Positions 2,931-24,560 of a stretch of DNA of 32,602 nucleotides are shown here, one piece after another. The notes below the pieces were generated by a model. It was not told where the DNA came from. It worked only from the letters and a program-made list of their open reading frames with translations, and did no database searches. This stretch comes from Bacteroidota bacterium. Its GTDB lineage: Bacteria > Bacteroidota > Ignavibacteria > UBA10030 > UBA6906. The stretch spans positions 1 through 32,602 of the forward strand of contig JADLEA010000017.1 in NCBI GenBank assembly GCA_020846365.1, read 5' to 3'. The number at the start of each line of letters is the position of its first letter. Positions within the stretch are counted from its first letter, which is position 1. The translations under genes were made by a program, and so were the position numbers.

Positions 2931-2955
2931 CATTGCGGCAAAATTATTGTACCTT
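2927..2955 (+). promoter_or_regulatory. Putative promoter for the str/S10 cluster overlapping the rpoC stop
   Basis: A perfect -35 box, TTGACA, lies at 2927-2932 and overlaps the rpoC TGA stop. After a 17-nt spacer comes TACCTT (2950-2955), continuing as TACCTTGA. This resembles both a weak -10 box and the TAnnTTTG element of Bacteroidota primary-sigma promoters. Transcription would begin near 2962, giving a leader of about 45 nt before rpsL. The same TTGACA-N17-TAnnTT layout occurs at 24532-24560. This is sequence inspection only. Confidence 0.5.
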
Positions 2956-3006
2956 GAAAAGCTGTCTTTCTACATCACGATTCAGCAGTATTTTCCGGAG
3001 TATTGC

Positions 3007-3387
3007 GTGCCGACGATCAATCAACTCGTGCGGAAAAGCCGCCGGCGGGTGACGTACAAGAGTAAGGCCCCGGCGATAAGCGGCAATCCCCAGAAGCGCG
3101 GAGTCTGTACCCGCGTGTACACAACCACACCGAAGAAGCCGAACTCGGCCCTCCGGAAGGTGGCCCGCGTCCGGCTGTCCAATGGCGTTGAAGTCACCGC
3201 CTATATTCCCGGCGAGGGGCACAACCTTCAGGAGCACAGCATCGTGATGATTCGCGGAGGCAGAGTGAAGGACCTTCCCGGTGTCCGCTACCATATTATC
3301 CGCGGCACACTGGACACCGCCGGCGTGGCGGAACGGAAGCAGGGGCGGTCGAAGTACGGCGCAAAGAAAGCCAAGAAGACGCAGTAA
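3007..3387 (+). CDS. rpsL: 30S ribosomal protein S12
   Basis: S12 sits at the decoding centre of the small subunit. The 126 residues start PTINQLVRK after a GTG codon at 3007, which has GGAG six nt upstream (2997-3000). An upstream in-frame codon at 2947 would add 20 unconserved residues and is rejected. The [10 protein letters not shown] loop (around Lys43) and the [10 protein letters not shown] loop are intact. These are the sites of streptomycin-resistance changes in other bacteria and look wild type here. It is the first gene of the str cluster and is likely driven by the promoter-like element at 2927-2955. rpsG follows after 18 nt. Confidence 0.98.
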
Positions 3388-7577: not shown

Positions 7578-7613
7578 CGTTTTGCCGGGCGTGAGCCCAC
7601 GCCCGGCAAAACG
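7578..7613 (+). promoter_or_regulatory. Perfect 16-bp GC-rich hairpin in the rpsJ-rplC gap
   Basis: The arm CGTTTTGCCGGGCGTG (7578-7593) is an exact reverse complement of 7598-7613, with a 4-nt loop AGCC. Two further wobble pairs are possible outside the stem. There is no T-run after it on either strand, so it is not a textbook intrinsic terminator. Candidate roles are an autoregulatory leader (L3/L4 class), an RNA-processing or stabilising site, or a dispersed palindromic repeat copy. It lies in an otherwise unexplained 137-nt gap inside a tightly packed operon. Confidence 0.8.
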
Positions 7614-15398: not shown

Positions 15399-15767
15399 AT
15401 GATCAGCAAACGAAAACTGGAGAATCGCAGGCGGACGAAGGAACATATTCGTCTGCATATGTCGGGGTCCGCACAACGCCCCCGCCTGTCGGTCTTCCGC
15501 AGCCTCCGCCATGTCTATGCACAGCTCGTTGACGACGATCAGGGCAAAACACTCGTCGGTGTCTCGGACCTGAGCGCCGAGCTTGCGGAACAGGCGAAGA
15601 GCGCCAAAGGACAGGTCGCGGTGGGAAAGCTGGTCGGCCAGTTCATGGCAAAGAAAGCACTTGAGCACAACATTGCGTCGGTGGTCTTCGACCGCAATGG
15701 TTTCCGGTATCATGGCGTCATCAAGGCTGTGGCTGACGGCGCCCGGGAGGGCGGACTGAAGTTCTAG
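15399..15767 (+). CDS. rplR: 50S ribosomal protein L18
   Basis: L18 binds 5S rRNA together with L5. The start at ATG 15399 gives 122 residues beginning ISKRKLENRRRTKEHIRLHMSGSAQRPRLSVFRS. GGGAG at 15384-15388 lies ten nt upstream. A GTG right after the rplF stop (15369) is in frame but adds ten unconserved residues. The C-terminus VVFDRNGFRYHGVIKAVADGAREGGLKF is canonical. The next gene is a tRNA, not rpsE. Confidence 0.97.
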   Translation: MISKRKLENRRRTKEHIRLHMSGSAQRPRLSVFRSLRHVYAQLVDDDQGKTLVGVSDLSAELAEQAKSAKGQVAVGKLVGQFMAKKALEHNIASVVFDRNGFRYHGVIKAVADGAREGGLKF

Positions 15768-15805
15768 GCGCCCCGCCGGTCGGGATCCGGGCCATGGAAG
15801 CTCAT

Positions 15806-15876
15806 TGTCGGGTCGTCTAATGGCAGGACAACGGCCTTTGGAGCCGTGAGTAGAGGTTCGAATCCTCTCCCGACAG
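15806..15876 (+). tRNA. tRNA-Gln (anticodon TTG)
   Basis: A complete 71-nt cloverleaf folds by hand. The acceptor TGTCGGG (15806-15812) pairs with CCCGACA (15869-15875) plus discriminator G. The D stem is GTCT/GGAC. The anticodon stem ACGGC/GCCGT encloses loop CTTTGGA, giving anticodon TTG. The variable loop is GAGT, and the T stem AGAGG/CCTCT encloses TTCGAAT. CCA is not encoded. It lies 38 nt after rplR and about 50 nt before rpsE, on the same strand, with no promoter or terminator visible, so it must be cut out of the ribosomal-protein mRNA or have a cryptic promoter. Confidence 0.95.
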
Positions 15877-15926
15877 CAGCAGGAAGCAGCATTAGTTCAC
15901 CATGTGGTATGTTGCGAGGAACAACG

Positions 15927-16451
15927 GTGGCACGAATCAAAGCGAGTGAACTCGAACTCAAGGACAAGCTTGTCCACATCAATCGCGTCGCGAAGGTCGT
16001 CAAAGGCGGCCGGCGCTTCAGCTTCAATGCGATCGTCGTGGTGGGCGACAGCAAGGGCCACGTGGGCATCGGGCTGGGCAAAGCCAACGAAGTAGCCGAT
16101 GCGATTGCCAAGGGCGTGGACGACGCGAAGAAAAGCGTCACGCGTGTGCCGATTATTCATGGCACCATTCCCCATCCGGTGATCGGGCGGTACGGCGCGG
16201 CAAGGGTGATGCTGAGACCCGCATCTCCCGGTACCGGCCTTATCGCAGGCGGGGGCGTGAGGGCGGTTCTCGAATCTGCCGGCGTGAAAGACGTGTTGAC
16301 GAAATCCATGGGCTCTTCCAACCCGCATAATGTGGTCAAAGCGACCATGGATGGGCTCCTGAGGCTGGTGGACGCCCGCACGGCAGCCCAACGCCGCGGC
16401 ATGTCCCTCAGGGAATTCTTCGGCACGACAGCAACCGTCCCAACACCGTAA
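15927..16451 (+). CDS. rpsE: 30S ribosomal protein S5
   Basis: S5 shapes the mRNA entry site and affects decoding accuracy. The start chosen is GTG 15927, with GAGGA (15916-15920) six nt upstream, giving 174 residues beginning [43 protein letters not shown] 15909 (six codons upstream) would use up the SD, and the frame's first GTG at 15846 lies inside the tRNA, so both are rejected. Conserved blocks [17 protein letters not shown] and [21 protein letters not shown] are present. Confidence 0.97.
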
Positions 16452-24531: not shown

Positions 24532-24560
24532 TTGACAAACACAACCTCGGTATTTATATT
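24532..24560 (+). promoter_or_regulatory. Near-consensus promoter for the receptor/T9SS/PorV unit
   Basis: TTGACA (24532-24537), a 17-nt spacer and TATATT (24555-24560) match the housekeeping sigma consensus at 11 of 12 positions. TATATTTA also resembles the TAnnTTTG element of Bacteroidota. The start point would be about 24567, leaving a leader of about 355 nt before the receptor ATG. The AT-rich patch stands out against its GC-rich surroundings. Confidence 0.75.

Follow-up and report, generated by a model that had tools for sequence, protein, structure and literature searches.

A lone tRNA-Gln(UUG) gene within the spc ribosomal-protein operon of Ignavibacteria-type Bacteroidota, and its probable co-transcription

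Few gene neighbourhoods in bacteria are as stable as rplR-rpsE, and a tRNA gene standing between the two raises the question of how such a tRNA is made, what its release would do to the ribosomal-protein (r-protein) mRNA around it, and whether the cell has another gene for the same anticodon. We address this question for the window, i.e., the whole stretch of 32,602 nucleotides of Bacteroidota DNA that was analysed here, and for the genomes related to it.

The tRNA gene and its place in the r-protein string

The features that bear on the question are as follows.

15399-15767, + strand: rplR (50S ribosomal protein L18), TIGR00060, 112.9 bits over cut-off; stop codon TAG at 15765-15767
15768-15805, + strand: 5' leader from the rplR stop to the tRNA, lacking the tRNA-type promoter known from 12 of 29 tRNA genes of this genome
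15779-15785, + strand: GTCGGGA, a tentative candidate anti-acceptor element, pairing in RNAfold with the 3' acceptor region TCCCGAC at 15868-15874
15806-15876, + strand: tRNA-Gln(UUG), complete, with a 4-nt variable loop and U1-A72; CCA not encoded
15877-15926, + strand: 3' trailer from the tRNA to rpsE, with the ribosome-binding site GAGG at 15916-15919
15927-16451, + strand: rpsE (30S ribosomal protein S5), start codon GTG; TIGR01021, 217.2 bits over cut-off

ARAGORN and Rfam (RF00005, 63.1 bits against a gathering score of 29) agree on a single tRNA for glutamine with anticodon TTG that starts at 15806 and, together with the NCBIfam matches to its neighbours, they confirm what an earlier note had read from the letters, a complete tRNA-Gln(UUG) between rplR and rpsE in the same orientation. 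Base pairing places the acceptor strands at 15806-15812 and 15869-15875, with G15876 as the discriminator. The tRNA shares its strand with all r-protein genes of the window, in the order rpoC(end)-rpsL-rpsG-fusA-tuf-rpsJ-rplC ... rplF-rplR-[tRNA]-rpsE-rpmD-rplO-secY-map ... rpsM-rpsK-rpsD-rpoA-rplQ. It follows the rplR stop by 38 nt and precedes the rpsE start by 50 nt, with GAGG seven bases 5' of the GTG at 15927; the whole rplR-rpsE gap comes to 159 nt, and other gaps in the str-S10-spc-alpha string are mostly below 80 nt, unlisted small genes allowed for, with the exception of rpsJ-rplC (≈139 nt). This latter gap holds a perfect 16-bp inverted repeat with a 4-nt loop (7578-7613) and no following T run, a possible r-protein regulatory hairpin.

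Across 32 distinct tRNA sequences from relatives, the stems pair in 99.6% of cells, with changes on both sides in 11 of the 21 pairs, from which we conclude that the operonic tRNA is real. The acceptor pair at alignment columns 1 and 70 is U-A in 30 of the 32 and A-U in the other two. As for charging enzymes, this genome (G000) encodes a glnS that scores over cut-off and a gatB found in pieces.

The 4.3-Mb assembly of this genome, in 561 contigs and 93% complete, yields 33 tRNAs. Thirty of these were examined as loci, and they include one Gln(TTG), at the spc site, and one Gln(CTG), elsewhere and with its own promoter; the remaining three match over 83-84 positions, the length of Leu/Ser-type tRNAs, and are thus unlikely to be Gln. 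Two pattern searches find no second UUG-Gln tRNA in this 93%-complete assembly, which is what the earlier note had guessed in suggesting that this gene may be the only one of its kind.

Distribution of two tRNA-Gln(UUG) types

Judged by rpsE, the closest relatives of the window are Ignavibacteria-type Bacteroidota, and in more than 50 of 80 relative loci a tRNA-Gln(ttg) lies directly 5' of rpsE. In a class sample of 149 genomes, the operonic-tRNA pattern matches 63, or 62 once G054 (poor match, anticodon CTG) is dropped. One of these 62 lacks an rpsE match; in each of the other 61 a single copy of the tRNA precedes the rpsE profile match by 60-180 bp on the same strand. In the order to which the window belongs, the operonic tRNA is present in 57 of 98 genomes (family f2, 0 of 32), and a comparison of the rplR-rpsE gap, which the earlier note had proposed, shows the tRNA between rplR stop and rpsE start at 57 of 57 examined loci. 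The insertion is absent at all 36 loci checked from other Bacteroidota families. The earlier note had treated the insertion as a local oddity, which it is not, and had named a prior report of it as general in the class as a point against its reading; presence is indeed general in several families of the class, but we found no such report.

One locus of the window's genus (L146, G013:C46, tRNA at 2948-3019 in the locus) carries the anticodon GTG (His) in an otherwise normal operonic tRNA-Gln. G013 is rated 100% complete, pattern searches find no other UUG-Gln tRNA there, CAA codons are present in its r-protein genes, and its congener G293 has anticodon TTG. A sequence error is the likeliest explanation; if real, this anticodon would be remarkable.

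Sister families carry a stand-alone tRNA-Gln(UUG) instead (e.g., L152, L155, L164, L171), which shares the amino acid, the anticodon and U1-A72 with the operonic type but has a 5-nt variable loop and an GCCAAGTGG D arm, compared to a 4-nt variable loop and a different D arm in the operonic type. The two do not overlap: of the 149 class genomes, the operonic type alone occurs in 62 and the stand-alone type alone in 81, no genome has the two together and six have neither, with 2-mismatch matches in G062 and G116 that are not Gln-tRNA-like set aside. One of the search patterns requires a 15-16 nt spacer and hence misses the operonic type. Five of the six genomes with neither are at most 85% complete. 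The window tRNA is 90% identical to that of a distant Ignavibacteria-type relative (L061) and only 68-72% identical to the stand-alone type. From this distribution and these identities, we conclude that the operonic tRNA replaced an older stand-alone gene. A TTGACA/TATATT-like promoter precedes several of the stand-alone genes. At L171, a TTGACT/TATATT promoter-like site and then a hairpin with a T run lie upstream of the stand-alone tRNA-Gln; this hairpin may mark where a neighbouring gene ends, or may be an attenuator. A tie between tRNA type and charging route was considered and rejected, as the presence of GlnRS and GatB does not track the type.

The operonic arrangement would date from an ancestor that several families of the class share, and would have displaced the ancestral stand-alone gene. 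Trees of six proteins have an unresolved backbone and do not reject a single clade of tRNA-bearing rows (p-AU 0.159), and the tRNA-less f2 falls in the window's order together with families that have the tRNA, which points to at least one loss. The rpsE start codons differ strikingly between loci with the tRNA (43 TTG, 9 GTG and 6 ATG among 58) and those without it (17 TTG, 21 GTG and 60 ATG among 98), but this link was dropped, as it is not independent on the tree.

Proposed expression and processing

We consider it quite probable that the sole tRNA-Gln(UUG) of this genome, built into the spc operon, is co-transcribed with it and excised, splitting the mRNA, so as to be proportioned to the r-proteins in place of a stand-alone gene. 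Transcription would start at the promoter upstream of the operon, with the tRNA carried inside the r-protein mRNA, and RNase P would cut at 15805/15806; the 3' end of the tRNA would be freed by an RNase Z type enzyme or by endo- plus exonucleases, with CCA added later. The RNase P RNA gene is present in this genome, and RNase Z is represented in the incomplete assembly by sub-cut-off matches only (best, 36.9 bits). Each tRNA made would split one transcript into a half with rplR and the genes upstream and a half with rpsE-secY and the genes downstream, the latter with a new 5' end. On release of the tRNA the trailer (15877-15926) would become the 5' UTR of the rpsE half; since the ribosome-binding site of rpsE lies in this trailer, that half should stay translatable. 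What the cell would chiefly gain is a supply of an essential single-copy tRNA that keeps pace with its ribosomal proteins.

This benefit is where a neutral history offers a serious, if clearly less probable, account: the tRNA may have landed here by chance, replaced the stand-alone copy and been kept since its loss is lethal, the r-protein linkage itself having no selective value. Single-copy essentiality alone would suffice for preservation, leader and trailer sequences are poorly conserved, and the rpsE start codons show no independent link on the tree. On the other hand, one site has been kept across many families, and no second copy or relocation is seen except where the whole type is absent. 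The two accounts differ on benefit and not on expression, and are not mutually exclusive.

Evidence on expression comes from promoter motifs. In this genome, 12 of the 29 regions upstream of tRNAs contain the exact motif TTG-N20-TAWATT, 40-140 nt from the tRNA and often at ≈40 nt, with a chance expectation of about 0.003 per 200-nt region. The motif is missing upstream of the spc tRNA and has no exact match anywhere on the + strand of the r-protein string; the only one in the window, at 24532-24560, lies beyond that string. That copy precedes a long ORF (24925) resembling a TonB-type receptor gene. A free promoter scan of the 120 nt upstream of the tRNA gives a background score with nothing above shuffle level, and neither a sigma-70-like promoter nor a + strand terminator is predicted near the tRNA. 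In relatives, the leader after rplR is only 4-9 nt long in 21 of 58 loci, so that a promoter, if any, would have to sit within rplR. An apparent 388-nt leader at L109 was discarded as the result of a wrongly chosen stop, rplR reading through to just before the tRNA.

That no separate promoter or terminator is visible, as the earlier note had stated, is thus upheld at the level of sequence motifs. Together, the missing promoter motif, the 4-9 nt leaders and the lack of a terminator make it by far most likely, on sequence grounds, that the tRNA is co-transcribed and then excised by RNase P and a 3' enzyme; the splitting of the mRNA that the earlier note derived from co-transcription stays an expectation, backed by the missing promoter and by the short leaders of relatives. 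We regard it as unlikely that the tRNA instead uses a promoter of its own in the 3' part of rplR, with the r-protein mRNA rarely cut. Internal promoters are common in r-protein operons in general and the promoter scan looks for a single type of motif, but no site rises above shuffle level in the 120 nt scanned, the r-protein string has no exact copy of the genome's own motif on its + strand, and no terminator precedes rpsE. With a 4-9 nt leader, we infer that a ribosome ending rplR would sit over the first part of the tRNA, and rplR translation and tRNA folding may thus compete.

The leader of the window's own tRNA is predicted to pair with the acceptor strand. The minimum free energy fold of the precursor in RNAfold uses the GTCGGGA/TCCCGAC pairing, and the predicted probability of the acceptor stem falls from 0.96 for the tRNA alone to 0.00 with the native leader, compared to 0.65 with shuffled leaders. 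Over 11 genera of the window's family, native leaders disrupt the acceptor stem more than dinucleotide shuffles do (mean rank 0.21) and more than leaders of other families (mean rank 0.25), in a test made after the fold was seen and on genera that are related and not independent; tRNAs of this genome at large, the spc tRNA-Gln included, show a mild bias (mean rank 0.42). In L272, L275 and L276, where the acceptor sequence has changed, the leader carries a GTCGTG that matches the change. Pairing of a leader close to the site of cleavage is known to act as a brake on RNase P (PMC10731613), and the predicted pairing could hinder processing in the window's genus.

These folds and ranks, the GTCGTG leaders that follow their own acceptor change and the precedent of the brake all speak for a pre-tRNA that acts as a regulatory element, in which the leader holds the tRNA unfolded, and the mRNA whole, until a signal or the level of translation permits the cloverleaf, so that operon splitting would itself be under control. 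We nonetheless judge this improbable, given an effect that was found after looking, in thermodynamic folding only and among non-independent genera, with leaders that are not alignable, leaders of a few nt and no effect in other orders, and a mild bias in other tRNAs of the same genome. That the leader in the window's family is specifically an anti-acceptor switch, choosing between an uncut spc mRNA and a tRNA with two half-mRNAs, seems, on predicted folds, a rather long shot; if true, it would couple r-protein output to tRNA-Gln supply. Finally, an assembly artefact or chimeric contig, which the 561 contigs of the source assembly might bring to mind, is refuted with near certainty, since dozens of independent assemblies share the arrangement, the single-contig genomes G113 and G119 among them.

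Known mixed operons and implications

Mixed tRNA/mRNA operons are already known, such as thrU-tyrU-glyT-thrT-tufB of E. coli, and this genome holds a second mixed unit (L218, G000:C34:7000-11500), tRNA-Thr/Tyr/Gly/Thr-rpmG-tRNA-Trp-secE-nusG-rplK, with TTGACT-16-TATATT before its first tRNA. Both likewise join co-oriented genes for tRNAs and translation proteins in what is apparently one transcript, but their tRNAs stand at the promoter end or between separate blocks, whereas the spc tRNA is a lone tRNA that interrupts the interior of an operon, with no other gene found for its anticodon. In mitochondrial transcripts, tRNAs serve as punctuation, and there too tRNA excision would define mRNA ends; that is a genome-wide system, compared to one tRNA in one bacterial operon here. 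Operons of the secG-leuU type in E. coli, reportedly described by Mohanty and Kushner in 2008 (cited in PMC3985628), would share with the spc tRNA an mRNA plus tRNA transcript that needs an RNase P cut; terminators reportedly shape processing there, while a long protein-coding sequence lies downstream of the spc tRNA.

A sole tRNA within the spc operon is, to our knowledge, undescribed, and a search of the open-licence literature found no report of one. The genome paper on Melioribacter roseus, a cultured relative, mentions 45 tRNA genes and does not mention the arrangement, which is present in an assembly of that name (L079).

With a single essential tRNA between rplR and rpsE and no stand-alone gene, maturation of this tRNA would be inseparable from the integrity of r-protein mRNA. 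This arrangement, found in a lineage of many families, is a natural test case for the idea that tRNA supply in bacteria is tuned to ribosome synthesis through shared operons, and for the way in which an r-protein operon would tolerate obligatory cutting. It also sets apart two tRNA-Gln types with no overlap in the sampled genomes.
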